DNA of 45,148 bases from Thalassospira sp. MCCC 1A01148 (GTDB lineage: Bacteria; Pseudomonadota; Alphaproteobacteria; Rhodospirillales; Thalassospiraceae). This document shows positions 1 through 45,148 of this stretch, one piece after another. The notes beneath the pieces are model-generated. The model saw nothing but the letters and a program-made list of their open reading frames with translations. It was not told where the DNA came from and did not search any database. The DNA is taken from the NCBI RefSeq assembly GCF_001613795.1, contig NZ_LPVZ01000007.1, positions 1 to 45,148 on the forward strand. The letters are read 5' to 3'. Position 1 is the first letter of the stretch; each line of letters opens with the position of its first letter. A program made the position numbers and the translations under genes.

Positions 1-14
1 TTGGTAGCGGAGGA
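1..14. repeat. Left copy of 14-bp attachment core
   Basis: The bases ttggtagcggagga open the window and recur exactly as its last 14 bases (45135-45148). With a serine recombinase gene running into the right copy, this is best read as the att core duplicated by integration. A short overlap from a circular assembly is the alternative. The reverse complement, tcctccgctaccaa, carries CCA where a tRNA 3' end would have it (discriminator A, then CCA), so the bacterial site may be a tRNA 3' end. That tRNA is not in the window and is inferred. Confidence 0.75.
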
Positions 15-27199: not shown

Positions 27200-27265
27200 A
27201 CCCGGGACAAAGCCCCGGACGGACCACCGGTGCGGGCAAAAATCGGGAATGATTTCAGGGAAAGA

Positions 27266-28735
27266 TCACAGGTCATCCGGGCCGATCTCCTCATCAAATT
27301 CGACCTCGGACCAATCGATCGGCGTGCGGATCATTTCCGCGAATGCCTCGCGGCACGCCTCAAGCTTGGGCATGTGATAGACGTATTTGCGATTGCCGCT
27401 GATCCGCTTGCGCCCCTTCTCGACCCCCGGGACCAGCTTGTTGATCGTGCGACCAAACATTTCCTCGGTCAGCGGGAAGCGACGACCGCGCGCCGTGACC
27501 CATGCCAGATAGTTCGCATAGGCATCCTCGACCGCGACATAGTCCGACCACATGGCCGAACCGCCGCCCTCGCTGTTGTATTGAACAAACCCGCGCCGCA
27601 GGCAGTTGAGCCACCACGACTCCTCTGGCGACAAACTGGCCAGCTTCTGATCGGCCAACGCCGCCGTTTTCGGGATGTCATTCAGGTTGACGCTATCGAG
27701 GTCGAAACTGAGCAAATAGCCAAGCAGCGCCTCATATCCGCCCGCCTCAAGCTGGTCGTGCATATCGGCAAAATACTGGCGGTTTTGCTGCGCTGCGTTC
27801 TGGACATCAAAGACCGCGAACCGGCGCTCGTCATGGCCTGCCGGCACAACCCATTCGTTGTTGGATGTCACCAGCAGATGGACATAGTTCTTGACCCGGA
27901 AGGGATCGACGCCCTTGCGCTCGATCATGTGATAGTCGGATGTCACAAGCCCCTTGAGCCGCCCCTCGGAGTGCTTGTCACCAGCCCAGAAACCTTCATC
28001 GGCCTGCAGCAACAATGTCGAGGCCAGGTGCGCGTTAAAGTTCCCGACCACATAGCGCGGATCATCGACCAGCGCATAGTGATCCTCGATCAGCTTGCCG
28101 ATCGTCTTGCCGAAAACAGTCTTGCCGCTGCCCTGCCCGCCGCGCAACACGATCGCGATTCCGATACGGTCCGTCGGCTTCTGGAGCATATGCGCCGCCC
28201 ACCCCATGATGAACTTGAAATGCGCCTCATCCCCGCCTGCGATATTGGTCCGGACATGATCAAGAAAGATCGAACATTTCTGTTCGCTATCCTCATAATC
28301 CGCGACCATGCTGAAACCGCGCCAAAGGTTATAATAGCCCGATGGCGGCATGCCGCCCGGGGCAAATGACACCCCGCGATACTGGCGACGGATCGGGTCC
28401 TTGAACCAGATTTTCGACCACGAAACGCTCTTGTCGCTTGCAAGCCGCTGCTCTTGGTTGGCAAACCACGCGTGGAAAGCATCAACCGGCATGAAGTTGA
28501 GCCGCTCCTCGACCGGACAATCGCCGCGCTTGAAGTTTTCCTCAAGGATCAGCGGACGCCCGCCCATCATCACCAGCGCGTAATATTCGTTCATCGCATC
28601 GGCGTCATAGGCAACGTCCCCCGGATCGACGCGCTGGCCATCCATCCCGAATATTTCGGCCCCTTCGATAAGCTGCTTGGCGGCGTGAAACCCTGCCAGA
28701 TCGGCCTGCGGGTCGTTGTTCTCGTTCTCAGCCAT
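27266..28735 (-). CDS. Phage replication helicase/primase-like protein (VapE/DUF5906 type)
   Basis: The product is 489 aa. The ATPase core has Walker A GGQGSGKT (199-206), an acidic DE in LLLQADEGFW (about 246) and an SF3-type sensor LLVTSNNEWVVPAGHDERRFAVFD (about 287-310). This matches the D5/VapE/DUF5906 helicase-type proteins of phages. The C-terminus (MFGRTINKLVPGVEKGRKRISGNRKYVY) resembles a winged helix. It probably unwinds DNA at the origin together with the CHC2 primase encoded upstream. The origin-like array lies just downstream of the gene. Confidence 0.85.
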   Translation of the reverse strand: MAENENNDPQADLAGFHAAKQLIEGAEIFGMDGQRVDPGDVAYDADAMNEYYALVMMGGRPLILEENFKRGDCPVEERLNFMPVDAFHAWFANQEQRLASDKSVSWSKIWFKDPIRRQYRGVSFAPGGMPPSGYYNLWRGFSMVADYEDSEQKCSIFLDHVRTNIAGGDEAHFKFIMGWAAHMLQKPTDRIGIAIVLRGGQGSGKTVFGKTIGKLIEDHYALVDDPRYVVGNFNAHLASTLLLQADEGFWAGDKHSEGRLKGLVTSDYHMIERKGVDPFRVKNYVHLLVTSNNEWVVPAGHDERRFAVFDVQNAAQQNRQYFADMHDQLEAGGYEALLGYLLSFDLDSVNLNDIPKTAALADQKLASLSPEESWWLNCLRRGFVQYNSEGGGSAMWSDYVAVEDAYANYLAWVTARGRRFPLTEEMFGRTINKLVPGVEKGRKRISGNRKYVYHMPKLEACREAFAEMIRTPIDWSEVEFDEEIGPDDL

Positions 28736-28737
28736 CG

Positions 28738-28950
28738 CTACAACAGTTTCCCCTGTTTTGGTTTACGCTGATCGGCGGGCAACGGGCCGATCGGTTCAAT
28801 TTCTTGCTCTTGGCCTGCAGCAATCCGCTTGTAGCGGAAGAACTCAGGCGGGATATGTGTCCGGCACCAGCGCCCGTGATTGACCATGATGTGCGTCCCG
28901 GCGCGCTTGCAGCCTTTGTGATCACATGGCATTACGCTTGAAGGTTGCAT
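28738..28950 (-). CDS. Small zinc-finger-like phage protein
   Basis: The product is 70 aa from ATG 28950, with GGAGG at good distance. It contains CDHKGC (residues 9-14) and NHGRWCRTH (about 24-32), a C...C...H...C..H cluster suited to one zinc ion, then a basic/proline C-terminus. It ends 2 bases before the helicase gene, so the two are coupled. Small zinc proteins in this position accompany phage helicases; its function is unknown. Confidence 0.65.
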   Translation of the reverse strand: MQPSSVMPCDHKGCKRAGTHIMVNHGRWCRTHIPPEFFRYKRIAAGQEQEIEPIGPLPADQRKPKQGKLL

Positions 28951-28997
28951 TATGCTAACCTCCGCAATGTCTTGGGGGTTTCGGGAGTTAAAGTACC

Positions 28998-29717
28998 GTG
29001 AGCGACAAACCGGTTTACATCATCGCCGCAATGGGGGCTGGTAGTGCGGTCGGGTTTCCATTTGGGCTCATCGCGGCAACATACGTATTGCCAATAGCCG
29101 TCGGTGATGGATGGGCAACCATTGTCGGTGCACTTCTTGGCGCGGCCATGACATCCGCTGCGGCACTTTATGTTGTCCACAGGCAAGACAAACTTAGTCG
29201 TAAAGCCAAGCGCGAAGAACAATTCCACAACATTCTTGATGCTATCGAATGGCTTGAAGACATCTTCACCGATTACGAAGAGGTTCATTCCACTGATTAC
29301 TGGCAGAATCTTTCTCAAACAGATGGAATTATGAGAGATGGCAGCAAAGAACTGCTTGGCTACGCGAGCAAATGCAAACGCCAAATCCAATATCTGGCCA
29401 TAGACCTGAGCAGTGTTCTGGAGGAGCTCACGGAACTCACGTTGCCAGATAGCATTCCAATAACTATTCGCCGGATCTTCAAAGACAGCCTCAAACCGGT
29501 TCGCTTGATAATCAACGACTGGGAGACCCTTAAACCGCTCACGCTCGTCAAAGAGGAAAGCTACCATAGATTTTTCAACACGACGTACGATATTGCGGTT
29601 TCGATCATCCCGGCTGAGATTTGGGAATTCAGAATGCAGACCAAGTTTCTGCGAGCGGAAATACTTCGATTGATTGAGCAATCCCCACTGGAACCAACCT
29701 CCCGCCCCAGGTCGTAG
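28998..29717 (+). CDS. Plus-strand membrane protein 1 (moron family member)
   Basis: The product from GTG 28998 is 239 aa. Two membrane segments are likely: VYIIAAMGAGSAVGFPFGLIAATYV (about 6-30) and WATIVGALLGAAMTSAAALYVV (39-60). A basic turn (HRQDKLSRKAKREE) and a helical cytoplasmic domain of about 170 residues follow. GGGAG precedes the start. The gene is alone on the plus strand between minus-strand early genes, so it must have its own promoter. The W-x-x-h-h-x-G core of the second segment recurs in three neighbours (29916, 31267, 33095). No family is known to me. Superinfection exclusion or another lysogenic role is a reasonable guess. Confidence 0.65.
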   Translation: MSDKPVYIIAAMGAGSAVGFPFGLIAATYVLPIAVGDGWATIVGALLGAAMTSAAALYVVHRQDKLSRKAKREEQFHNILDAIEWLEDIFTDYEEVHSTDYWQNLSQTDGIMRDGSKELLGYASKCKRQIQYLAIDLSSVLEELTELTLPDSIPITIRRIFKDSLKPVRLIINDWETLKPLTLVKEESYHRFFNTTYDIAVSIIPAEIWEFRMQTKFLRAEILRLIEQSPLEPTSRPRS

Positions 29718-29915
29718 CGACGCTGATTTCCGTTTACGCATTTCCACGCCCTTCCATCGTTGTGGTGAAGGAAGGAGCCTTGCACGGACGACAAAGGGCA
29801 ATGTGCCGATACATGCGAAAATTTCGCTTAAACGCGCACGTTCGCCGATTTCTTTTGACCCAAGCACAACCCCAAAGGCATGATCGACAAAAGCACACAA
29901 CCAGAGAAATGACCC
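29718..29915. other. Intergenic stretch between plus-strand genes 1 and 2
   Basis: The 198 bases hold no supported gene. Short open frames present on both strands lack ribosome binding sites and typical composition. A promoter-like pair for the next gene lies at 29855-29884. Confidence 0.5.
29855..29884 (+). promoter_or_regulatory. Candidate sigma-70 promoter of plus-strand gene 2
   Basis: TTGACC (29855-29860), an 18-base spacer and CATGAT (29879-29884), 32 bases before the TTG start at 29916. Both hexamers deviate from consensus at one or two positions. Confidence 0.3.
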
Positions 29916-30509
29916 TTGAGATACCTCAGCATAAGGAAGGCAATCATTGGCGCGAGCATCGCATTTTTCGCAGGACCATTCATCTTTATGATGATCGACA
30001 GTGCATGCAGCCCCGTCAGCAATGAGATTTGCCGACAGTGGCTCGCGTTTAGCTGGGAAACGGTTCTGGCGGGCGGATTGGGACTTGTCGGCGGTTGGCT
30101 TGCCTTCAAAGGCGCTACAATCGACGGGCGCGTTCACAGGGAAGGCACAAGAATCCTTTTCCGTGAGCAAACACTGACCGAGTGCAGTTTTTTCGTGCCC
30201 ACGGACAAGGATGGAGAACCATCCGAAACAGGAACAAGCATATACGAAAGTAAAGCTCTCGACGACAACTTCGATGACAGTGTGAAGTATTGCGCCGACT
30301 TGTTGACAATATCCCTCCCCGATATCCCGCCCGAAATCGCGAACAAAGAACTCGCAAAGTATCGCGCGGCAGTGATTGAATCTGCCCTCGCAGTTTCGGG
30401 GGATGCAGCGGAAAACAAGATCACCGAAGCGAATATGAGAACGCTCAAAGGACGTATCCTTGGATACTTGGAGACCATTGACAACTTGAAGGACCCGCTC
30501 GGACATTAG
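29916..30509 (+). CDS. Plus-strand membrane protein 2 (moron family member)
   Basis: The product is 197 aa. It begins with TTG at 29916 and has a positively charged N-terminus (RYLSIRK). Membrane segments are AIIGASIAFFAGPFIFMMI (about 9-27) and SWETVLAGGLGLVGGWLAF (46-64). The second is very close to the segment in the gene at 31267. The remainder is soluble and helical, acidic near the middle. The stop at 30507-30509 overlaps the convergent methyltransferase stop. The start codon is uncertain because no ATG lies in this frame nearby; AGAGAA lies upstream. Confidence 0.65.
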   Translation: MRYLSIRKAIIGASIAFFAGPFIFMMIDSACSPVSNEICRQWLAFSWETVLAGGLGLVGGWLAFKGATIDGRVHREGTRILFREQTLTECSFFVPTDKDGEPSETGTSIYESKALDDNFDDSVKYCADLLTISLPDIPPEIANKELAKYRAAVIESALAVSGDAAENKITEANMRTLKGRILGYLETIDNLKDPLGH

Positions 30510-31183
30510 AGTAAGCTCTCCTGACTTGCGGCTTGCGCAACCAGCGTCGACTGATCGGTTGGCGTCACGCGCTCGGGCACAAACAGGTCAAGGTTATCCA
30601 ACTTTGGCTTGGACAGTGTGTCCCAGATCGTGCGGCCATTGAAATCGCGCTCGAACCCAAACCATGCGCAATTGAGCGCAGGGCTTCCAAGGCCTAGGCT
30701 ATCGATGCGCCATGACAGTTCGAGCTTGTATTTCGGGCGAATGCGCTGCTTGAAACCGGTGCGGCTGGCAGCTTGGTAATAATCGGTTTTCAGCAGCATC
30801 CAGACTTCTTCCAGATGCAGGCGCATGGCGTGTTCGATAAACGCCTGCGCCAGCGTGAAAGGCGGGTTGGTGACAGCCTTCGCCGCGCGACGACGGTGCG
30901 TGGCGAGAAAATCAACCCCACCCTCGCCATAGCCGCGATCAATCAGATCCGTGCCAATAACTTTGCAGCCGTGATGCTCAAGAACCCGGGCCAAGCGACC
31001 ATCGCCGCAAGCACATTCCCAGATTTTCTGCCCTGCAAGGTGCGGCATGGCGCGAATAAGGGCCTCGGTTGCTTCTGGCGGCGTTGGGTAAAACTGGTTT
31101 TCGTCAGGGCGCTCCCAATCAACCTCGCCAGAACGCCCGCCGAGCATCATCGCGCCTTTGTTGGTCTTGCGGTTTGCCACCAT
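30506..31183 (-). CDS. DNA adenine methyltransferase, NPPF type
   Basis: The product from ATG 31183 is 225 aa. AAGGGGG lies 8 bases upstream; the further upstream in-frame start at 31222 has no such site. It contains the SAM-binding WECACGDGRLARVLEHHG (about 54-71) and the catalytic VTNPPF (about 103-108), which mark an amino-methyltransferase of gamma/Dam-like order. It lies in the leftward early operon between helicase and primase. It could protect replicating phage DNA from restriction. Specificity cannot be deduced. Confidence 0.85.
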   Translation of the reverse strand: MVANRKTNKGAMMLGGRSGEVDWERPDENQFYPTPPEATEALIRAMPHLAGQKIWECACGDGRLARVLEHHGCKVIGTDLIDRGYGEGGVDFLATHRRRAAKAVTNPPFTLAQAFIEHAMRLHLEEVWMLLKTDYYQAASRTGFKQRIRPKYKLELSWRIDSLGLGSPALNCAWFGFERDFNGRTIWDTLSKPKLDNLDLFVPERVTPTDQSTLVAQAASQESLL

Positions 31184-31205
31184 CACGCTACCCCCTTGAG
31201 ATAGG

Positions 31206-31234
31206 TTGACGTTATCAGGCACCCCACCAACAAT
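31206..31234 (+). promoter_or_regulatory. Candidate sigma-70 promoter of plus-strand gene 3
   Basis: TTGACG (31206-31211), a 17-base spacer and AACAAT (31229-31234), 33 bases before the ATG of the gene at 31267. This is the best promoter match among the four plus-strand genes. Confidence 0.4.
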
Positions 31235-31266
31235 GCCCCGATCAGGGAAGCATGGGGAATTGAGAA

Positions 31267-31842
31267 ATGCGCAAGTTTGAAGACTGGTTCAATAGCATTC
31301 CGCTGACAGGAACGGTTGCAACAGCCTTTCTTACGGGCACGCTCTATGGGCGCGAGTTTGACATCAGTTGGGAAACGCTTGCCGCTGGATTCCTTGGCCT
31401 TACCGGTGGCTGGCTCGCCTATAAAGCCGCGACAGACCACAGAAGAGCGACCGAGAACCGAAACGAGTATATCTTCAGAGCAAGGCACCTCCCCGATCTC
31501 CACCGAGCAAGAGAACTGCTGGAGCGACACAGACCTCTTGGCCAAAATTTCCCAATGCTGGTGATTGGGGACTACAACCCCAATGGAATCATCGAACTCC
31601 TTGACGGGGCAGCATGCTTTGACAAGCCACTTCCAGCGAGACTTGCAAACGAAATTGAAAGTTTGTGCCTTGCTCTCCCAGCATTCAAAACCAGTCTGGA
31701 TGGCACTTCGACTAAACCTCACAACTCCGGGGCCACAAGCGTAGAGATCAAGGATACCGCTTCTATGGTTCGCTCTTTCTGGCGCCTCAAGGGAGCGACA
31801 GACGAGCTCATTCAAAACATAACGTTTGACGCATTGCGCTAA
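31267..31842 (+). CDS. Plus-strand membrane protein 3 (moron family member)
   Basis: The product is 191 aa. A weakly hydrophobic N-terminus (PLTGTVATAFLTGTLYG, 12-28) is followed by SWETLAAGFLGLTGGWLAY (34-52). This segment matches gene 2 (SWETVLAGGLGLVGGWLAF) at most positions. A cytoplasmic part of about 135 residues follows, rich in Arg and Leu (ARHLPDLHRARELLERH). The start has GGGGA upstream and a promoter-like pair at 31206-31234. It is convergent with the primase gene, the stops being 9 bases apart. The function is unknown, but the shared segment ties it to the other three genes. Confidence 0.7.
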   Translation: MRKFEDWFNSIPLTGTVATAFLTGTLYGREFDISWETLAAGFLGLTGGWLAYKAATDHRRATENRNEYIFRARHLPDLHRARELLERHRPLGQNFPMLVIGDYNPNGIIELLDGAACFDKPLPARLANEIESLCLALPAFKTSLDGTSTKPHNSGATSVEIKDTASMVRSFWRLKGATDELIQNITFDALR

Positions 31843-31850
31843 CCTTGACA

Positions 31851-33008
31851 TCACGCCGCCCCCAAAATCATCGAGTTGAAATCAGTACCTGGCTTTGACA
31901 TGGCGATGCGGCCAACCCGGCCCTCCGCCGCAGCACGGCGGCAACCGCGCTCAAGCTTCGCCTTGAGCATATGGATGTCTTTGGTGTCGCCATCGCCCAG
32001 AAAGATCCGCTCATGGCATTCGCGCGGCCAGATCATGCCCGGGCGGGCCATATCGGGCACCACCGTCGGCAGCTTTTTGCGACCATCAAGCGGATGATAT
32101 TCGCCCTTGGCGTCCATCAGACCGGCACCAACAAGGTTATCAAGCGAATAGGAACACCAGCCAGAAAGGCCGGACGCCATCATGCCGGAATAGGTCGTTT
32201 CCAACCCCTCCCCGCCGACCATCTTGAAGGCAGGCTTTCCAAGGCGGATCGCCGCCTTGGACGGATCGCCCATCACGCGTTTGGTGTTGAGTTCCCGGCT
32301 ATCATCGGGCGCATAAAGCTTGAGCCGCCCCTTGGGCCGGTTAAGGTCGATGCAGGTCACATGACAGGCGGCAAAGCGATCATCGCTATATTGCATCACG
32401 CTCAGCAATGCCGGACCGGTCCAGATCGCCTCGGATTTCTTGGCATCGCGGGCGCGGTACCAGAACTCATAATCAGGCACGAACCGATGCACCCCGTTAT
32501 GCAGGAAGAGATCGCGATCAATCCCGCGATAATTCGCAAGGTATTCCTCGGCCTCGGTATCCGCGATTGGAAGCCCCCGCTGCCAAAGCGCATGACCGCG
32601 CTTGCGACGCTTTTCGGTTTCCGAGACACGGTCCTTTTCATCGGCCCGACTGGCGATCTTGGGCTTGGGCTTGTGCGCAGGCTTTTCGGCCCGCCCGACA
32701 TATTCGGTCAGGTCAATACCGGCCTTCCATGCCAGATCCTTGAGCGCCTCGATAAATGTCTGGCCATAGACGCGCATCTGATAGCCGATCGGCTTTTCAT
32801 GCGCGCCGCAGCCAAAGCAATGCGCGAACCCCTTGTCAGGGCGAACCGTAAAGGATGGCGTGCGCTCGGAATGGAACGGACAAAGCCCCATCCATTCACG
32901 CCCCGACTTCGCCAGCTTGACACCGGATTTATCGACCAGCTCGACCAGATCGGTTCGCGCGTTAACATCATCGATCGCTGATTGCGGGATTGGGTTGCGA
33001 TGGGTCAT
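31851..33008 (-). CDS. DNA primase with CHC2 zinc finger and toprim domain
   Basis: The product is 385 aa. The zinc finger is C43-x2-H46-x17-C64-x2-C67 (CPFHSERTPSFTV...HCFGC). The toprim-like catalytic part carries GGEGLETTYSGM and, further on, LGDGDTKDIHMLKAKLE, the acidic residues that coordinate metal. A short linker rich in Lys and Arg (AHKPKPKIASRADEKDRV) separates the domains. It should prime replication together with the helicase at 27266. The gene is shorter than bacterial DnaG and lacks its C-terminal helicase-interaction region, as usual in phages. Confidence 0.9.
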   Translation of the reverse strand: MTHRNPIPQSAIDDVNARTDLVELVDKSGVKLAKSGREWMGLCPFHSERTPSFTVRPDKGFAHCFGCGAHEKPIGYQMRVYGQTFIEALKDLAWKAGIDLTEYVGRAEKPAHKPKPKIASRADEKDRVSETEKRRKRGHALWQRGLPIADTEAEEYLANYRGIDRDLFLHNGVHRFVPDYEFWYRARDAKKSEAIWTGPALLSVMQYSDDRFAACHVTCIDLNRPKGRLKLYAPDDSRELNTKRVMGDPSKAAIRLGKPAFKMVGGEGLETTYSGMMASGLSGWCSYSLDNLVGAGLMDAKGEYHPLDGRKKLPTVVPDMARPGMIWPRECHERIFLGDGDTKDIHMLKAKLERGCRRAAAEGRVGRIAMSKPGTDFNSMILGAA

Positions 33009-33031
33009 GATAGCCCCACCAGCTCAACAGG

Positions 33032-33061
33032 TTGCCAAAGCCAGAAAGACAACGATAGATA
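33032..33061 (+). promoter_or_regulatory. Candidate sigma-70 promoter of plus-strand gene 4
   Basis: TTGCCA (33032-33037), an 18-base spacer and TAGATA (33056-33061), followed by AGAGGGGG and the ATG at 33095. Confidence 0.35.
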
Positions 33062-33094
33062 GAACGGCTGATCAATTAAGAGGGGGCCTACAAA

Positions 33095-33883
33095 ATGGCA
33101 CACACCAACCACAGGGTCGCGGAAGATAGAGTATCGTTGTTCATTTGCGCCATTGTCGCCGGGTTCTGTGGAGCGGCCCTTTGCTTTATCTTGCTGGTTA
33201 TCTCCGGCACAAAGTTCGTAGCAGCGACACCAGATTCCTTCGCTGGTTTCTTTAAAACCGCTTTCGAGTGGCAGGCACTGATCGGTGGGCTGCTTACATT
33301 TGCAGCAGCAATGATCGCTGTCTGGCTTACGCATCGGCACTTCAACACCACCCGGATCTCTGCCCGCGCCAAAGCGAGAGCAGAGGCCCTGATCGGACTC
33401 TCCGAGGCTTTTGAGACAATGGGCAGCTTCATACACAGCGTAGAGGAAAACACCGGACCAAAAGGACCGAGAGAAGACGACTGGCCGGGCACCGATGGCT
33501 ACAAAATTGATCTGGAGAAGCTCAGAAGATTTAGACCCGATGACATCATCAAAGTGACGCCATTGATCGAGTATGAGCGAAACCCCGACACCAGACGCAT
33601 CCTTGAGGAATTCACCAAAAGTTACGCCATAACAGTGAACAGACTTAATGACTTCAAGATCAGCTACCGTAACGGAAAAAATAACACCAACATCGAAAAT
33701 GCCGTCTCCTCGGCTGTAGAAACTTACGCACTGGCAAGCAAAATCATCGCAGCGCTTCAAGGTGATATCGGGAGCTCCATCACCAACGACGACATCAGTC
33801 GATATGCTGCCCCAGCAGGCGTTGGCACGGCTTCCAAAGTAGAAAAAATGCTCTACAGGGCAATGAACCCGACCAAAAGATAA
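33095..33883 (+). CDS. Plus-strand membrane protein 4 (moron family member)
   Basis: The product is 262 aa, the longest of the four. Two clear membrane segments are visible: VSLFICAIVAGFCGAALCFILLVI (13-36) and WQALIGGLLTFAAAMIAVWL (59-78), with a basic follow-on (THRHFNTTRISARAKARAE). The remaining 180 residues are helical and charged. AGAGGGGG lies 8 bases before ATG 33095. It is placed alone on the plus strand between primase and the next minus-strand gene. The W-Q-x-L-x-G-G core recalls the other three. A role in blocking other phages at the membrane is speculation. Confidence 0.7.
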   Translation: MAHTNHRVAEDRVSLFICAIVAGFCGAALCFILLVISGTKFVAATPDSFAGFFKTAFEWQALIGGLLTFAAAMIAVWLTHRHFNTTRISARAKARAEALIGLSEAFETMGSFIHSVEENTGPKGPREDDWPGTDGYKIDLEKLRRFRPDDIIKVTPLIEYERNPDTRRILEEFTKSYAITVNRLNDFKISYRNGKNNTNIENAVSSAVETYALASKIIAALQGDIGSSITNDDISRYAAPAGVGTASKVEKMLYRAMNPTKR

Positions 33884-33888
33884 ACCAA

Positions 33889-34374
33889 TCATGCCGCCAC
33901 CTTCCGGGCAGCGCGCCCTTGGTAATAGCCGCGCATTTCAAGCTTTTGCGCCAGCTTGATCGCGTTCTTGCGGCCCGAGTTATAGGCGCCATCGACCAGA
34001 TCGTCATATTCCGAGATCCGATCAATCAGGCAGGTTGCCGCCTGATCAAAATCAGACCCTTCGATAAGGGTCAGCGTGCCATCCTCAAGCGCGTCACGCA
34101 GCCAGATCACCACCATCAGGAAAACCGTGATCACCGGGCGATCTTCATATTCACGAAGCAGCTCACCCTGCAGGGCCATCACGCGGTTGCGCAGCTTGTC
34201 GGCTTTGGCCTTGGGCAGATCCGAAAACGGTTCATCACAAGCCCGATCAAGGCATTCAAGCACTTCGGCATGGCCTTCTTTAACACCTGGCTCCAGTATC
34301 ACGCCCGCAACCCGCTGCATCAAAACGGCGGGAATGGCGAACTCGCAGCGATGGCGATCGGAAAGGTACGTCAT
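33889..34374 (-). CDS. Early leftward gene of unknown function
   Basis: The product is 161 aa and I do not recognise it. It appears soluble and helical (VKEGHAEVLECLDRACDEPFSDLPKAKADKLRNRVMALQGELLREYEDRPVITVFLMVVIWLRDALEDG), with a hydrophobic patch near residue 85 that is too short to be a sure membrane segment. The C-terminus is basic (GRAARKVAA). Its ATG overlaps the stop of the upstream HTH gene (ATGA), so the two are coupled in the early operon. Confidence 0.6.
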   Translation of the reverse strand: MTYLSDRHRCEFAIPAVLMQRVAGVILEPGVKEGHAEVLECLDRACDEPFSDLPKAKADKLRNRVMALQGELLREYEDRPVITVFLMVVIWLRDALEDGTLTLIEGSDFDQAATCLIDRISEYDDLVDGAYNSGRKNAIKLAQKLEMRGYYQGRAARKVAA

Positions 34375-34754
34375 GCCGCCACCCCGTAAAGACGCGGTTG
34401 CGGTTCAAGAGCTGCCGTCATCCGGTCCGCTGCCTCGCGAAGCAGGCTGGCGATTGATCGGATCAGGGCGCGCATACCGGCACGTTCGGCGTCAAACCCG
34501 CCAAGCACCCCGGCCTTGTGAAGCTGTGCGGCGTAACTTTCAAAATGCGGACAACCGGCCCCGGCGCGCGCCGCGGCGATATCCGCATCAACCGCGGCTT
34601 GCATGTTGATCACATCACCGCGCATCGGATTGGCGCATTGACGCAGGCGGGAATAGGAAACCCCGCAGGCATCCGCCAGAACCTCACCACCCACGGCGTG
34701 CATGGCCTTGGTGGTCGCATCGGCGAAACTGTTTTCTGATCGCAAATAAGGCAT
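34371..34754 (-). CDS. Putative phage regulatory protein with HTH (CII-like position)
   Basis: The product from ATG 34754 is 127 aa. The N-terminal part has an HTH-like region (GGEVLADACGVSYSRLRQCANPMRGDVINMQAAVDADIA). This pattern matches phage regulatory proteins of CII type that follow cro. The C-terminus is helical. It is the second leftward gene after the cro-like gene, as cII is in lambdoid immunity regions. Function as an activator is inferred from position and HTH. Confidence 0.55.
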   Translation of the reverse strand: MPYLRSENSFADATTKAMHAVGGEVLADACGVSYSRLRQCANPMRGDVINMQAAVDADIAAARAGAGCPHFESYAAQLHKAGVLGGFDAERAGMRALIRSIASLLREAADRMTAALEPQPRLYGVAA

Positions 34755-34845
34755 GACTATCAAACCTCCCCGGTTTGGGAGTTGCCGCCCGATCCATCGA
34801 CTGAGATAAATCGGGACAGCAACAGGGCAACATAATTGAAGCCAG

Positions 34846-35055
34846 TCACGAGGCAGCTTTGACAGTCACGAAACCATAGAAGTCATTTGGCGTGACAGCC
34901 CCGCCGGTTTCCGCCCAAACACGATGGGCAGTCTCGACATTGGGCATCAGACTTCCATCGCACAAACGGGTGACAGTCGAAGGGCTGACACCGATTTGGT
35001 CGGCAAAAACTGATTTTTTGGTTTTCGTGGCTTTAAGCCATTCACTGAGCTTCAT
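34846..35055 (-). CDS. Cro-like repressor
   Basis: The product is 69 aa, a lambda-repressor-like HTH (LKATKTKKSVFADQIGVSPSTVTRLCDGSLMPNVETAHRVWAETGG). It is divergent from the CI-type repressor gene and separated from it by 130 bases of operator DNA. It is the first gene of the leftward early operon. It probably binds the same operators as the repressor and switches off its gene during lytic growth. Confidence 0.8.
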   Translation of the reverse strand: MKLSEWLKATKTKKSVFADQIGVSPSTVTRLCDGSLMPNVETAHRVWAETGGAVTPNDFYGFVTVKAAS

Positions 35056-35075
35056 GCACCTAGATTTGCAGGATC

Positions 35076-35108
35076 AGCGAATTTTGACAACCGAAAAATT
35101 CGCTAATT
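35076..35108. promoter_or_regulatory. Operator cluster between cro-like and repressor genes
   Basis: AGCGAATTTT (35076-35085) and AAAATTCGCT (35095-35104) are 10-bp inverted arms. GAAAAATTCGCTAATT (35093-35108) is the exact reverse complement of a 16-mer at 36807-36822 before the rightward operon. TTGACA (35084-35089) overlaps the left arm and could be the -35 of the repressor promoter; the -10 is unclear. Further AT-rich half-sites (ATTTCGCA, TCTGCAAAATT) lie to 35160. Confidence 0.65.
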
Positions 35109-35185
35109 CAGATAATTTCGCAAAAAACGGCAAAGACCGAATTACAGTTTTCTGCAAAATTCCGAGAAACCCCCGGAGCAAGAAG

Positions 35186-35926
35186 ATGACAATGGACGAA
35201 CGCACCAAACGCAAAAAGGCACTTGAGGCAGTTACAGAAGACGCCCGAGACATTGCGAACGAGATCGCCACCAAGATTGACCGTGGCGAGATCGAAAACG
35301 CGGACGACCGCGACGAGCTGGAGAGCTACGTCAGCAAGTTTGCAGCGAACAACATTCGCAAACTGCGTAAAAAACGGGGATGGTCGCAGGGCGAGCTGGC
35401 GGAAAAAGCCAATAGCACCACCAGTCAGATATCACGCCTTGAACGCGGCGACCTGCAGCTCACGGTTCGATGGCTAGAGCTGATTGCCAACGCGCTGAAC
35501 TGCAAACCCTATCAACTGATCGCAAACATCCGCGAAACCGTGCGCGTCCCTGTGATCGGCTGGGTATCGGCAGGCCATTTCACCAATGCAGAATCCGTGG
35601 CAATACCGGATATCGACCGTTACGACATGATCGAATGCGCTGGGGTGAACCCCGCCACCTGCTTTGCGTTGCGCATTGAGGGCGATTCCATGAACCTGAT
35701 CGCCCCGGAAGGATCGACGATCATTGTGGACGTCAGCAACAAGGAACCCATGGACAAGAAATTCTATGTGGTTGCCAACAACGGCGGCGAAGCGACGTTC
35801 AAGCAGTTCAAAAACAGCCCTCCCCGTCTGGAGCCATGTTCAACCAACCCGGCCCACGAAACGATTTTCCCCAAGGGAGAGATCCACGTTGTCGGGCGCG
35901 TTATTCAGGTCATCCACGACCTTTGA
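35186..35926 (+). CDS. LexA/CI-type phage repressor (XRE HTH + S24 peptidase)
   Basis: The product from ATG 35186 is 246 aa; GGAG lies 9 bases upstream. An extra N-terminal helix of about 50 residues precedes the XRE-type HTH (NIRKLRKKRGWSQGELAEKANSTTSQISRLERGDLQL, about 56-92). The C-terminal S24 domain has the cleavage site Ala129-Gly130 (VSAGHF), nucleophile Ser168 (EGDSMN) and Lys206 (GGEATFKQF). All parts needed for RecA-stimulated self-cleavage are present, so SOS induction is expected. It should bind the operators at 35076-35108 and 36798-36822. Confidence 0.92.
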   Translation: MTMDERTKRKKALEAVTEDARDIANEIATKIDRGEIENADDRDELESYVSKFAANNIRKLRKKRGWSQGELAEKANSTTSQISRLERGDLQLTVRWLELIANALNCKPYQLIANIRETVRVPVIGWVSAGHFTNAESVAIPDIDRYDMIECAGVNPATCFALRIEGDSMNLIAPEGSTIIVDVSNKEPMDKKFYVVANNGGEATFKQFKNSPPRLEPCSTNPAHETIFPKGEIHVVGRVIQVIHDL

Positions 35927-35938
35927 GACCCCTGAAGA

Positions 35939-36640
35939 TCAAAGACGACCGGGTTCGGCGGACACCTCCAGAACCATTTCAGGGTCTGTCGAAAACGTGC
36001 AGACATAAATAACATTCTGCCAAGCCCCGAACCCGTTCTGCATCTTGAGCTTGTCACCAATAAAATCGACAATCCCGGCTTCTTTGTCCTTCCAACGGTA
36101 ATGACTGAATTTCATTTCAAGCATACCGTCAGTCCATTCATGATCCCATTTCGCCAGACGCTCAATCTGGTCGGGGCAATAGACAGACGCCGAAGCAATA
36201 TATTTATCGCCATAGCATGATACCGACTGGCGGCATGCAACCGCTTCGGCCTCGGCTTTTTCACGCGCGGCGACCTCGGCCTCGGCCAGTGCCTTGGCTG
36301 CAGCATCCGCAGCCGCTTGTGCCCCTGCCTCTGCCTTTGCTTTTTGATCAGCAAGATGATCGCGGTACGCCAAAGGGTCGGTAAAGCCGGCATTCTTAGC
36401 GGCGTTCATTTCGTCCTTGCCCGCAAACCCGGCCTCAATAGCACTCTCGTTCATGTCGGCGTCGGCAAAGTAACCACCAGCCACAAGCAGAACGAACATA
36501 GCCAGGAACGCTAAGCCCGTGCGTTTTGAATATTTCGTGCGCTGATCCTTGCGAATCAGCGACAAAACCAACCAAACGACCGCCAGCACTAGGGAAACGA
36601 GCGCCAGACAGAACGATATCAACCCAAGTGCCGTGTACAT
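35939..36640 (-). CDS. Membrane-anchored protein with coiled coil, next to the repressor
   Basis: The product from ATG 36640 is 233 aa, with GGGGGAG upstream. Two membrane segments (YTALGLISFCLALVSLVLAVVWLVLSLI and TGLAFLAMFVLLVAGGYFA) are followed by an Ala/Glu/Lys-rich coiled coil (AKAEAGAQAAADAAAKALAEAEVAAREKAEAEA, about 112-145). A C-terminal domain has three cysteines (CRQSVSCYGDKY, VYCPDQIERLAKWDHEWTDG). It is convergent with the repressor gene. As it is not part of the early operon, it may be expressed in lysogens. A surface or exclusion role is possible, not shown. Confidence 0.6.
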   Translation of the reverse strand: MYTALGLISFCLALVSLVLAVVWLVLSLIRKDQRTKYSKRTGLAFLAMFVLLVAGGYFADADMNESAIEAGFAGKDEMNAAKNAGFTDPLAYRDHLADQKAKAEAGAQAAADAAAKALAEAEVAAREKAEAEAVACRQSVSCYGDKYIASASVYCPDQIERLAKWDHEWTDGMLEMKFSHYRWKDKEAGIVDFIGDKLKMQNGFGAWQNVIYVCTFSTDPEMVLEVSAEPGRL

Positions 36641-41181: not shown

Positions 41182-41927
41182 TGAAAGCGATAACCATCTG
41201 GCAACCATACGCGTCGCTTGTCGCCGAAAATTTCAAGAAAATTGAAACACGGGGATGGCAAACCCACTACCGGGGACAAATCGCCATTCACGCCGCGAAG
41301 AAACCCTTCAAGGAAGTAGATTTCCTAGACAACCTTCTTGAGCTGCAATCCGCATCCAACCAGAAGCCAGACGAGGCACAGGCCGTTATCGATTGGTATC
41401 ATTGCAATCGAAAATCCGGATTTCAGACCAGCGCCATTATCGCGGTCGCATATCTGGAAGCTGTAATACCGACCGAGGACCTGACCGACGAGGGCCTTCT
41501 GTGCCCTGTAGAATACGCACTTGGCGGGTACGGACCAGAGCGATTTGGCTGGTGCTTTTCAAATATCAAAAAACTGGAAAATCCAGTCATAACGAACGGC
41601 AAACAAGGGATTTGGAACCTAAGCCCATCGCTGACTGTCGAAACCCTAAAGCAGCTACTGAGCCGCGATGCTCAGATCGTTGCCCAATCACTTTTCGGCC
41701 TCGGGAAAAACAGCAGCGTCACTTTCCAGACGCCTTCAAGAATAACTCCCCGAACATCGATCGCGATCAATGAACTGATCAATGCCGGCATGGTCGTGCG
41801 CGACATGGATTGGCATGAAAGCATCAGAGTTTTCAAGGGAACCGAGAACATCGGAAACCCGCGCCGCGACTTCAAACCCGTCGAAGAGAACGAAGACTTC
41901 GCTATCGTCAAGGGAGACGCAGCATGA
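41181..41927 (+). CDS. ASCH-domain protein with C-terminal HTH-like extension
   Basis: The product from ATG 41181 is 248 aa. Residues 1-130 match an ASCH/PUA-like domain (KAITIWQPYASLVAENFKKIETRGWQTHYRGQIAIHAAKK), with the family pattern WQPYASL and ETRxW. The domain is thought to bind RNA or modified nucleic acid. The C-terminal 100 residues (LLSRDAQIVAQSLFGLGKNSSVTFQTPSRITPRTSIAINELINAGMVVRDMDW) resemble a winged-helix, an unusual fusion. It is coupled to the C5 methyltransferase gene (ATGA), so both may act on phage DNA or its transcripts. Confidence 0.8.
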   Translation: MKAITIWQPYASLVAENFKKIETRGWQTHYRGQIAIHAAKKPFKEVDFLDNLLELQSASNQKPDEAQAVIDWYHCNRKSGFQTSAIIAVAYLEAVIPTEDLTDEGLLCPVEYALGGYGPERFGWCFSNIKKLENPVITNGKQGIWNLSPSLTVETLKQLLSRDAQIVAQSLFGLGKNSSVTFQTPSRITPRTSIAINELINAGMVVRDMDWHESIRVFKGTENIGNPRRDFKPVEENEDFAIVKGDAA

Positions 41928-43300
41928 AATACCTATCGGTCTGCGCAGGCATAGAAGCCGCCAGCGTGGCATGGCATGACCTTGGCTGGGAGCCGGTCCT
42001 TTTGAGCGAGATAGAGAATTTCCCGCGCAAAGTTCTTGCCCATCGCCAGAACGCCATTGACGCCCGCAAGACCGGGGCTGCGGCGCGCGGTGTGCCACTT
42101 TGGGGTGATTTCACGGCCATGAGGCCACGCTTTATGAAAAGGTTGGGGATTGATGGAACAATTGAACTTGTTGTCGGCGGCACCCCCTGTCAGGACTTCT
42201 CGGTCGCAGGAAAGCGCGCAGGACTGGATGGCGCGCGTGGTAACCTTACCCTCGAATTTGCCCACCTTCTGCGCCGAACAAAGCCCCGCTGGTTCGTTTG
42301 GGAAAATGTCCCAGGCGCATTCTCTCTTAACAGTGGAAAAGATTTCGCAGCCGTCCTTGCACGATTTGCAGGGCATGCCCCCGGATCTGCCTTTGCAGTG
42401 CCAAAGGAAGGATGGCGAAATTCCGGCGTCGTCCCGCCTGCTGGTCCCGGATGTTACGGGCTTGCCTGGCGCGTGCTGGACGCTCAATACGTGCGCATGG
42501 ACAGCGCCCCCGGAGCAGTGCCACATCAGCGAAAACGTCTGTTCATTGTCGGATATCTTGGAGACTGGCGACCTGCCGCCGCGGTACTTCTTGAGCGCGA
42601 AAGCATGTGCGGGAATCCTCCGCCGCGCCGCAAGCCGGGGCAAGGCGCTACCCACGATATTGCACCGAGCCTTACGGCGAGTGGCCGGGGCGTTGAACGC
42701 AACGGCGAAAGCCGCGGACAAGATCCGGTAGTTGTTCACGGCTTTGGCGGCGGAAACACCAACGGCCCGATCGATGCCGCGGCCTGCCTGACTGCCAAGG
42801 GACAGCGCATCGACTTCGAAATCGAAACCTTTGTTGTCTCTCCTCAGGAAGAAAACGACAACATCCCGCTAGCCTTCGATTGCAAGGCGTCAGGACGCAA
42901 CGGCTTTGCAGTCGGGGACGTTGCGCCAACGTTACGCGCGATGGGAGCACTACACAGCCACCAGAATGCAGGCGGCCAAGTTGCCGTTGTAAACCGCGGT
43001 GAAGTGCGCCGCTTGACCCCCATGGAATGCGAACGCCTGCAAAACTTCCCCGATAATTACACCCTGATCCCGATGAATCGCCGCCGCCCGATCAGCTTTG
43101 AAGAAGCCAAATACTACTGGCGTCAGGCAGAACCCGGCATCAAGTGCTGGTGCGAAAACCGCAAATGGTACACCAACGCCGCCCCGGACGGCCCGCGCTA
43201 CAAGGCGCTCGGCAACAGCATGGCTACCAACGTTATGCGCTGGATCGGCAAACGCATCGAAATGGTTGAACAGATCATCAATGAAAGGATCGCAGCATGA
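41924..43300 (+). CDS. DNA cytosine-5 methyltransferase
   Basis: The product is 458 aa. SAM motif I (LSVCAGIEAASVAW, 4-17), the catalytic GGTPCQDFS with Cys89, FVWENVPGA (124-132) and HQRKRLFIV (motif VIII) are visible. The variable target-recognition stretch includes APSLTASGRGVERNGESRGQ. The C-terminal motif X region contains RYKALGNSMATNVMRWIG. It is the third methyltransferase of the phage, beside two adenine enzymes. A Cys-based enzyme of this length should methylate a short DNA target, probably to resist host restriction. Confidence 0.92.
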   Translation: MKYLSVCAGIEAASVAWHDLGWEPVLLSEIENFPRKVLAHRQNAIDARKTGAAARGVPLWGDFTAMRPRFMKRLGIDGTIELVVGGTPCQDFSVAGKRAGLDGARGNLTLEFAHLLRRTKPRWFVWENVPGAFSLNSGKDFAAVLARFAGHAPGSAFAVPKEGWRNSGVVPPAGPGCYGLAWRVLDAQYVRMDSAPGAVPHQRKRLFIVGYLGDWRPAAAVLLERESMCGNPPPRRKPGQGATHDIAPSLTASGRGVERNGESRGQDPVVVHGFGGGNTNGPIDAAACLTAKGQRIDFEIETFVVSPQEENDNIPLAFDCKASGRNGFAVGDVAPTLRAMGALHSHQNAGGQVAVVNRGEVRRLTPMECERLQNFPDNYTLIPMNRRRPISFEEAKYYWRQAEPGIKCWCENRKWYTNAAPDGPRYKALGNSMATNVMRWIGKRIEMVEQIINERIAA

Positions 43301-43541: not shown

Positions 43542-45148
43542 ATGAAAATCGCTGTTTACGCCCGATATTCGTCTGAGCTTCAAGACGAAAGGTCGATCGA
43601 AGACCAGATATCACTTTGCAATGATCACGCCGCGCGCCGCCTTGGAGGTGCCGTCACCAAGGTCTATGCCGACTACGCCATTTCCGGCGCGCATATCGCA
43701 AACAGACCGGAAGTGAACCAGTTACTTGAAGATGCTGCAGCTCGCAAATTTGACGTGGTTCTCGCCGAGGATCTCGATCGAATTTCGCGCGACCAAGAAC
43801 ATATCGCCAGCATATTCAAGCGACTGACTTTTGCCGGTGTCCGGATACATACGGTAGCCGATGGCGATATCAATGAAATGCATATCGGGCTCAAAGGCAC
43901 CATGAGCGCGCTTTTCCTCAAAAACTTGGCGCTCAAGGTCAAGCGCGGCCTGACAGGACGCGTCAAGGAAGGAAGACACCCGGGCGGTCGAACCTACGGT
44001 TACGATATCACCAACCAAATCGCACCCGATGGCAGCGTCATCCGGGGGAAACGGCGCATCAACCCCGAGCAGGCAGAAGTCATCAAGCGGATTTTCCGAG
44101 AATACAACGCCGGTCGCTCCACCAGACAGATCGCCCGCGACCTGAACAAGGACAAGATCCCGGGACCTACTGGCAAAGAATGGACGGCCAGTACAATCAA
44201 TGGCAATCGCCAGCGCCGACACGGGTTTCTATACACCGAGCTTTATGCAGGATTCTTGATCTATAACCGCGTGCATATGGTCAAAGATCCTGCCACGGGC
44301 AGAAGGCTGAGCCGGCCAAACCCGCCCGAGGAATGGATCGTAACCGAGGTCCCCGACCTGGCTATCATTGACCGCGCTGAATGGGACGCAGCTCAAGCAC
44401 GGAAAGAAGCCAACAATCAGCACTGCCAGCTAAACAGAACGCACCGGCCCAAGCACCCGCTTAGCGGGTTGGTGAAGTGCGGAATTTGCGGCGGATCTTA
44501 TACCATCGTATCCAAGGACGCGATGGCCTGCTCTGCAGCGCGCGAGCGTGGAACCTGCCACAACAAACACCGCATCAAGATGCCAGACCTGCAGAAGCGG
44601 GTCTTTGACGGCATCACCGGCAAGCTGATATCACCAGACGCACTCGAAGCCGCAATGACGGCATACCATCAGGAACGAACGCGCCTGCGTAAGATCGCCC
44701 GCTCGAATCTAAAAGCCCTGACCAAACGCAGGACCGAGATTTCTCACTCGATCAACAACATCGTGAATGCGATCGCATCTGGCCACGCGCCCGAATCCCT
44801 TACCGGCAAACTGATCGAACTCGAAGGGGAACTAAAATCGATTGAGGCGGAGCTGAATGTCATCGACAGCGAAGATAATGTCGTCGAAATTCACCCGAAC
44901 GCCGTGCGGGAATACAAGCGGATGGTGAAGGACCTTACCTCAGCCCTCCGATCCGCAGCGGAACCGCACCGATCGGAAGCTATCGAGATCATTCGCGGAT
45001 TGATCGACCACATCGAAGTATTCCCCACTGACAAACCGCGCGTAACCGACGTGCAGGTCTACGGAATCCTCGATGAAATAAAAAACCTCGCCGGACTTGC
45101 GTCGGGCGAGGTCTCAGTCCAAAGGACTGTCTCGTTGGTAGCGGAGGA
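43542..45148 (+). CDS. Large serine recombinase (integrase), 3' end runs into the att core
   Basis: Open from ATG 43542 to the window end, 535 codons plus two bases. The resolvase domain has VYARYSSELQ with nucleophile Ser10 and Arg8, then DLDRISRD with Arg80 and Arg83. The recombinase domain (about 165-270) includes GYDITNQIAP and INPEQAEVIKRIFREYNAGRSTRQIARDLN. A zinc ribbon has Cys313, 316, 330 and 339 (KCGICGGSY...AC...GTC). A coiled coil and basic tail follow. The frame continues into the left end to TAG at 64 if the molecule is circular, making about 552 aa. It integrates the phage at the 14-bp core. Confidence 0.92.
   Translation, partial: MKIAVYARYSSELQDERSIEDQISLCNDHAARRLGGAVTKVYADYAISGAHIANRPEVNQLLEDAAARKFDVVLAEDLDRISRDQEHIASIFKRLTFAGVRIHTVADGDINEMHIGLKGTMSALFLKNLALKVKRGLTGRVKEGRHPGGRTYGYDITNQIAPDGSVIRGKRRINPEQAEVIKRIFREYNAGRSTRQIARDLNKDKIPGPTGKEWTASTINGNRQRRHGFLYTELYAGFLIYNRVHMVKDPATGRRLSRPNPPEEWIVTEVPDLAIIDRAEWDAAQARKEANNQHCQLNRTHRPKHPLSGLVKCGICGGSYTIVSKDAMACSAARERGTCHNKHRIKMPDLQKRVFDGITGKLISPDALEAAMTAYHQERTRLRKIARSNLKALTKRRTEISHSINNIVNAIASGHAPESLTGKLIELEGELKSIEAELNVIDSEDNVVEIHPNAVREYKRMVKDLTSALRSAAEPHRSEAIEIIRGLIDHIEVFPTDKPRVTDVQVYGILDEIKNLAGLASGEVSVQRTVSLVAE
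45080..45111 (-). terminator. Leftward terminator inside the recombinase 3' end
   Basis: On the minus strand CCTCGCCCGAC-gcaa-GTCCGGCGAGG forms an 11-bp stem with one mismatch, then six T residues. It lies 24 bases from the att core and faces transcripts entering from the right, as from a host gene at the integration site. Confidence 0.65.
45135..45148. repeat. Right copy of the 14-bp attachment core
   Basis: Identical to bases 1-14. In the recombinase frame it reads LVAEE. Beyond the window the host sequence (if integrated) or the left end (if circular) continues the reading frame. Confidence 0.75.

Follow-up and report, generated by a model that had tools for sequence, protein, structure and literature searches.

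Accessory genes of phages, known as morons, stand singly between conserved phage genes, have a guanine-plus-cytosine (GC) content below that of their neighbors, and carry promoter-like leaders. The word "moron" occurs in PMC10883804, where the P22 protein SieA is described as a prophage-encoded inner-membrane protein that blocks injection, has three sequence types (~25% identical) and three predicted helices, and is encoded between phage genes 16 and 9. Two membrane helices are reported for SLATT effectors in PMC7159879, and accessory genes in prophage hotspots are, by PMC9122126, an already known kind. The present analysis concerns four plus-strand genes (genes 1 to 4; Table 1) in the early operon of a probable prophage of Thalassospira sp. 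MCCC 1A01148. The window examined is the entire 45,148-base contig NZ_LPVZ01000007.1 of this 4.3-Mb genome. The four genes belong to one diverged family of predicted membrane proteins, in which a predicted two-helix anchor is kept and the tails differ beyond recognition.

The three moron traits listed above recur in these genes, the promoter-like leaders before genes 2 and 3. Unlike morons, however, one family here fills several gaps of a single phage with differing tails and is also present at chromosomal sites. A scan gives 11 terminator-like sites versus 10.8 expected, none of them directly after one of genes 1 to 4. Anti-phage hotspots are small, high-turnover loci between two conserved genes and contain conflict-type cargo. 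High turnover between conserved genes is likewise found at three early-operon gaps (sites A, B, and C) in nine phages and at the pyrC and tRNA-Arg sites of the genus. In contrast to the hotspots, the loci described here include three to four gaps of an early operon, often hold a single gene, and share one recurring membrane family. SLATT proteins resemble the family in having two membrane helices and a helical soluble part, and SLATT-like cargo is found at site A of the related phages L069 and L070, but no nucleotide-signal partner is seen here. The SLATT models do not match genes 1 to 3, and gene 4 scores below their curated cut-offs (NCBIfam E value of 0.31, 11 bits versus 41; Pfam E value of 3.1, 8.3 bits versus 26.3). 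P22 SieA, compared by description and not by sequence, is likewise a small inner-membrane protein that is encoded by a prophage and exists in widely diverged types, whereas the proteins studied here have two predicted helices, a predicted cytoplasmic tail, and a location in early-operon gaps. The listings of the literature searches show no account of a single membrane family that, with varying tails, is used both in phage slots and at chromosomal sites.

BLASTP searches show that genes 2 and 3 are clear relatives (48% over 44 amino acids [aa], E value of 2e-10). For the other pairs, hairpin segments excised by their tryptophan (W) motif were compared as profiles, built from 55 gene-2/3-type sequences (some of them duplicates), 14 gene-1-type sequences, and 6 gene-4-type sequences. 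In hhalign, the gene-4 type matches the gene-2/3 type at 94% and the gene-1 type at 95%, and the gene-2/3 and gene-1 types match each other at 65%. Against the same three profiles, the best of 34 unrelated membrane decoy families reach 41%, 2%, and 1%, and the maximum for 9 decoy families that are likewise W anchored is 22%. The W-centered segments that the preliminary description of this DNA saw in all four proteins are thus shared beyond general hydrophobicity, and its view of a single diverged family is borne out. Taken alone, the link of gene 1 to genes 2 and 3 is weak; it depends on the bridge through gene 4. The three types adjoin at six places: G000:C7 (the window), G006:C6, G015:C44, G025:C30, G026:C23, and G021:C33. 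One of these, locus L028 (G026:C23), has four members in ~5 kb within a different prophage-like region that contains a CI-like repressor.

In a large protein database, gene 1 retrieves, besides itself, only P0003 (89%) and P0004 (76%; T. tepidiphila), and gene 4 retrieves nothing except itself. Diverged relatives of both come from related phages, those of gene 4 being found in L039 and L069. Gene 3 is 48% identical over 149 residues to a protein of L037, and a profile of 17 relatives retrieves 18 large-database proteins, including gene 3, with named sources that are mostly Thalassospira. Among 4,961 open reading frames (ORFs) of the scanned loci, 779 of them with a hydrophobic stretch, all those passing an E value of 0.001 bear the hairpin on inspection by eye; many of these members had gone into profile building, and those of L122 to L144 had not.

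Within the gene-2/3 type, hairpin and tail behave very differently. Comparison of 38 members (703 pairs) with composition shuffles, the hairpins again being excised by their W motif, gives z scores above 6 for the hairpin in 610 pairs and for the tail in 65. A hairpin z score above 6 is combined with a tail z score below 3 in 506 of the 703 pairs, and no pair has a tail z score above 6 with a hairpin z score below 3. Some pairs with unlike tails, such as gene 3 and P0008, P0010, or P0011, are 74 to 81% alike in the hairpin, and divergence alone hardly accounts for such pairs. The tails form 15 clusters, 7 of them with a single sequence. Judged from these comparisons, the tails have likely been exchanged between members, rather than having diverged very fast.

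Nine sequences have an almost unchanging GGWLAYKAATDHRRATENRNEYIF where the second helix ends and differ in the first helix. The structural reading comes from the AlphaFold2 model of gene 3 (predicted local distance difference test of 88.4, predicted TM score of 0.74), that of gene 4 being unusable. It contains a helix at residues 11 to 31, a long helix at residues 35 to 87, and a small bundle of helices that also has two strands. Two of the helices are of membrane length, and the second continues into the soluble part. Since lysine and arginine are enriched after the second helix (fraction of 0.207, versus 0.081 before it), the positive-inside rule places the tail in the cytoplasm. The variable tail is therefore predicted to be cytoplasmic, with little of the protein facing the periplasm.

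All four plus-strand ORFs are present, and long ORFs lie antisense to them (e.g., 28950-30506 on the minus strand). The plus frame of gene 1 is coding and under purifying selection, because its dN/dS ratio (nonsynonymous to synonymous substitution rates) against the chromosomal copy in locus L122 is 0.22 (dN of 0.055, dS of 0.247), versus 1.08 in the stop-free antisense frame; the substitutions number 16, 11, and 37 at codon positions 1, 2, and 3. This test covered gene 1 alone of the four. The GC content of genes 1 to 4 is 49.6 to 52.4%, with 57.2 to 59.1% in four neighboring operon genes, 55.4% in one further gene, and 56.0% in the window as a whole. By reading of the ORF list, minus-strand ORFs cover nearly all of positions 71 to 28950, and genes 1 to 4 are, as had been proposed, the only plus-strand genes before a repressor-like plus-strand ORF at 34892-35926. 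The operon genes flanking sites A, B, and C are all on the minus strand. One of them we take to encode a methyltransferase-like protein from its NPPF motif.

Table 1. Features of the early-operon region in the window, and cargo of sites A, B, and C in the window and related phages
Feature	Position	Strand	Description
Gene 1	28998-29717	+	239 aa, GTG start; WATIVGALLGAA core; predicted pair of membrane helices and a soluble tail
Gene 2	29916-30509	+	197 aa, TTG start; WETVLAGGLGLVGGWLAF core
Gene 3	31267-31842	+	191 aa, ATG start; WETLAAGFLGLTGGWLAY core
Gene 4	33095-33883	+	262 aa, ATG start; WQALIGGLLTFA core
DUF5906 (VapE-like) protein, early operon	27266-28735	-	Assigned by Pfam
Small operon gene	28738-28950	-	Fragments beside family members in L122 and L124
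Methyltransferase-like gene	30506-31222	-	Putative; no Pfam match; start probably at 31183
Primase-like protein (CHC2 zinc finger)	31851-33008	-	From Pfam and related phages
Operon gene adjoining site C	33889-34374	-	No assigned role
Site A	28951-30505		Between small gene and methyltransferase-like gene
Site B	31184-31850		Between methyltransferase-like and primase-like genes
Site C	33009-33888		Between primase-like gene and 33889-34374
Junction copy at methyltransferase-like start	31181-31195	-	GGGGGTAGCGTGATG
Junction copy at primase-like stop	31849-31863	-	GGGGGCGGCGTGATG; resembles the empty site of L040 to L042
Promoter-like pair before gene 2	29855-29884	+	From promoter scan
Promoter-like pair before gene 3	31206-31234	+	TTGACG-17-AACAAT
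Site A, window			Genes 1 and 2
Site A, L037			273-aa protein, SWIM protein, gene-1-type protein
Site A, L039			Gene-2/3-type protein
Site A, L040 and L042			HicB and HicA (L040 by Pfam; sequences identical in L042)
Site A, L041			SWIM-like protein (by eye)
Site A, L066			Gene-1-type protein
Site A, L069			SLATT-like protein and HicB
Site A, L070			HicB, DUF891/HI1420-type pair, SLATT-like protein
Site B, window, L037, L039, L069			Family members (gene 3 in the window)
Site B, L040, L041, L042			Empty; the two operon genes overlap
Site B, L070			PAPS-reductase-like gene in the operon's own strand direction
Site C, window			Gene 4
Site C, L039			Gene-4-type protein
Site C, L037 and L069			DUF4145 (L037 by Pfam; L069 by eye)
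Site C, L041			D12 methyltransferase in the operon's own strand direction
Site C, L070			No insert
Site C, L040			No antisense ORF of note

Searches with gene 3 and the primase-like and DUF5906 proteins find eight related phages (L037, L039, L040, L041, L042, L066, L069, and L070), the phage of the window being the ninth; L044 is a genome piece resembling L070. The early operon is largely preserved in all nine, and its gaps hold differing cargo, mostly on the opposite strand (Table 1). At site B, which is visible in eight of the nine, gene 3 stands between phage genes that adjoin in L040, L041, and L042. Fixed gaps, variable cargo, and these empty sites agree with the moron character suggested earlier for the four genes. 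The methyltransferase-like gene is not found in L069, where sites A and B merge; this phage also encodes a gene-4-type protein, one gene up from site C. L042 is left out at site C, as it is without a homologue of 33889-34374 and its primase-like gene appears as two separate matches. The toxin-antitoxin cargo is assigned with E values of 2e-21 for HicA/HicB, 3e-28 for the HI1420-type antitoxin, and 2e-5 for the DUF891 protein that accompanies the latter. The SLATT-like cargo (L069, 6273-6932; L070, 7081-7788) matches SLATT_1 with E values of 1.6e-5 and 4.7e-5, below the curated cut-off.

The empty site B junction reads GGGGGCGGCGTGATGG in L040 and L042 and GGGGGCAGCGTGATGG in L041. In the window, two copies of the junction, equal at 13 of 15 positions, flank the gene 3 insert, and the L039 insert is flanked likewise. 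Such copies could reflect recombination at operon junctions or selection preserving a translation start. Promoter-like pairs had been described before three of the four genes; they are present before genes 2 and 3, and the third site lies inside gene 4. Firmer support than the scan comes from the conservation among relatives of the TTGAC-bearing leaders of genes 2 and 3. The TTGACG leader is common to gene 3, L039, and L029, a different common leader, also with TTGAC, is found in L037 and L069, and gene 2 and the site A gene of L039 are 70% identical in their upstream regions (29750-29871 for gene 2).

Within the genus, the gene-2/3 profile finds 35 places in 20 of 29 genomes. Ten genomes are positive with the gene-1 profile, 4 with the gene-4 profile, and 23 with the three together. 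Outside the phage of the window, 44 members are found in 35 genome loci, many of them as solitary genes, and 12 of these loci have a tRNA gene within 500 bp of a member. Two chromosomal sites were traced across the genus. Upstream of a gene that we take from its sequence to be pyrC, 14 genomes have the same neighbor gene within the stretch examined, with one family member in 9 of them and other ORFs in the remaining 5. The members are of the gene-2/3 type in five cases and of the gene-1 type in four (that of G013 just at an E value of 0.0035), and in G008 a member adjoins pyrC in the absence of that neighbor gene. The pyrC genes of these ten member-bearing genomes are 93 to 100% identical. Among the tails, one of 45 pairs is clearly related (G000 and G002), with G008 and G014 being marginal, and several pairs combine a common hairpin with unrelated tails.

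The second site is the gap between a presumably YitT-like gene and tRNA-Arg, where members are found in at least 10 of the 29 genomes (G003, G006, G009, G012, G015, G018, G021, G022, G025, and G028); this is a lower bound, the anchor motif being unrecognised in six genomes and the 1.5-kb flank often ending short of the tRNA. In G003, the member lies beside a HigA antitoxin gene, and the gap is empty in G013 (21 bp) and G017 (29 bp). In G028, an HNH endonuclease gene (L130, 8331-8846; Pfam E value of 3e-9) adjoins the member. The cargo of the pyrC and tRNA-Arg sites also includes another type of two-helix-looking protein (L150, 736-1350, with no Pfam match; L197 of G004). A further chromosomal site (L125, 8585-11103) has a regulator-like gene with a gene-2/3-type and a gene-4-type member on either side; in L132, L141, and L142, this site has a member of one or the other type.

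Six of the 35 loci (L022, L024, L029, L122, L124, and L128) are prophage remnants, with fragments of the early operon within 1 kb of an intact member and no fragment spanning a complete operon gene. L028 and L131, with primase-like matches 5 to 6 kb from a member, are not counted among them. The L122 copy matches gene 1 with 91% DNA identity, and the match continues into the fragment of the small operon gene beside it. L022 and L024 adjoin tRNA-Met genes, the 3' end of which equals the window's putative attachment (att) sequence exactly in L024 and differs slightly in L022. Two HicB-like genes are found near the member in L022. The simplest reading of these remnants is that the gene was retained while the surrounding prophage decayed. 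The chromosomal relatives, the intact members within decayed prophages, and the toxin-antitoxin and SLATT-like cargo of the phage gaps go beyond what the preliminary description saw.

The att sequence in question, TTGGTAGCGGAGGA, is an identical stretch of 14 bases at both ends of the window (1-14 and 45135-45148) and has the appearance of a prophage att site. It equals the 3' end of the tRNA-Met (cat) gene in L024 and is also found near the ends of two further contigs of the same genome. A plus-strand ORF at 43542-45146, with no stop before the right end of the window, presumably encodes a large serine recombinase. Because of the shared ends, their match to the tRNA-Met 3' end, and this ORF, the window is most likely an integrated prophage separated from the chromosome by the assembly. 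The IMG/VR record UViG_2724679112_000001 corresponds to it in content. The window also encodes a C-5 cytosine-specific DNA methylase (41924-43300, plus strand; Pfam E value of 4e-32).

A function in conflict with other phages is suggested by the toxin-antitoxin and SLATT-like company, by the turnover, by the persistence of the gene once its prophage has been lost, and by the design of a constant anchor with a variable tail. The explanation that we tentatively prefer, at somewhat less than even confidence, is that they are accessory genes for single-gene anti-phage proteins, with the constant inner-membrane anchor as the actuator and the variable, predicted cytoplasmic tail as the recognition part. 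Members would be expressed in the lysogen from their own promoters, and the tail would encounter, in the cytoplasm, a component of an incoming phage. The hairpin would then act on the inner membrane and halt the infection, perhaps arresting the cell. According to PMC9122126, the transmembrane components of anti-phage systems are regarded as effectors. A benefit to the host would explain how the gene outlives its prophage, and pressure on recognition would explain the changing tails. Still more tentatively, the members may make up a genus-wide, polymorphic, single-gene membrane immunity family, with the two helices as a socket for exchangeable cytoplasmic recognition tails, that moves between slots in the early operon of temperate phages and fixed sites in the chromosome and persists after the loss of the prophages that introduced it.

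Several observations weigh against this explanation. Promoter-like sites are no commoner than in shuffled sequence (3 at 27200-36000 versus 4.7, standard deviation of 2.4), and 23 of the 35 loci are without a nearby tRNA. The family hardly reaches beyond one genus: class-wide, 4 of 289 genomes match the gene-2/3 profile, and this genus accounts for two of the four. Genes 1 to 4 have no notable match in Pfam, PHROGs, NCBIfam, or PADLOC, nor do the 38 members in PADLOC or PHROGs, and fold searches gave no match indicating function. Fast divergence could also give unrelated-looking tails, and part of the alternative cargo (the SWIM protein, the PAPS-reductase-like protein, and the D12 methyltransferase) is not known as defensive.

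Among the alternatives, a toxin, addiction, or regulatory role of these membrane proteins, of use to the element or the host but with no action on phages, is not very likely. Toxin-antitoxin genes do form the alternative cargo and are sometimes neighbors of members, but no recurring antitoxin partner accompanies the family, many of the 44 members being single genes; this alternative also overlaps the anti-phage explanation, because toxin-antitoxin genes are themselves often anti-phage. Superinfection exclusion of the SieA kind, an inner-membrane block of DNA injection by related phages without cell arrest, is unlikely. It would fit small proteins that are encoded by phages, predicted to sit in the inner membrane, and highly variable from phage to phage, as in the prophage-encoded injection blocker of P22 with its three diverged types (PMC10883804). 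However, prediction places the variable part in the cytoplasm with little periplasmic exposure, three membrane helices are predicted for SieA (same source), and single copies outside recognisable prophages are less expected of a phage-against-phage tool. It is improbable that the genes are mere passengers, cassettes retained through easy recombination at operon junctions and tRNA sites: the junction copies that flank gene 3 and the 12 loci near tRNA genes would agree with this, but gene 1 is under purifying selection and intact members stand beside truncated operon genes in six loci. That the four proteins are unrelated and share just a general resemblance of membrane segments is scarcely credible, as the modest match of gene 1 to the gene-2/3 profile and the weak Pfam, PHROGs, and NCBIfam matches, different for each of the four, are set against the lower scores of all 34 and 9 decoy families, the hairpin z scores in 610 of 703 gene-2/3-type pairs, and the adjoining of the three types at six places.

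If the anti-phage explanation is true, Thalassospira would offer a natural set of proteins with a constant anchor and variable tails for finding what a membrane guard recognises. The pyrC, YitT-like/tRNA-Arg, and early-operon sites could then be mined for unknown anti-phage genes, because much of their cargo is without a known family. The remnants would reveal a prophage gene kept after the loss of its prophage, which would make the usefulness of decayed prophages directly testable.

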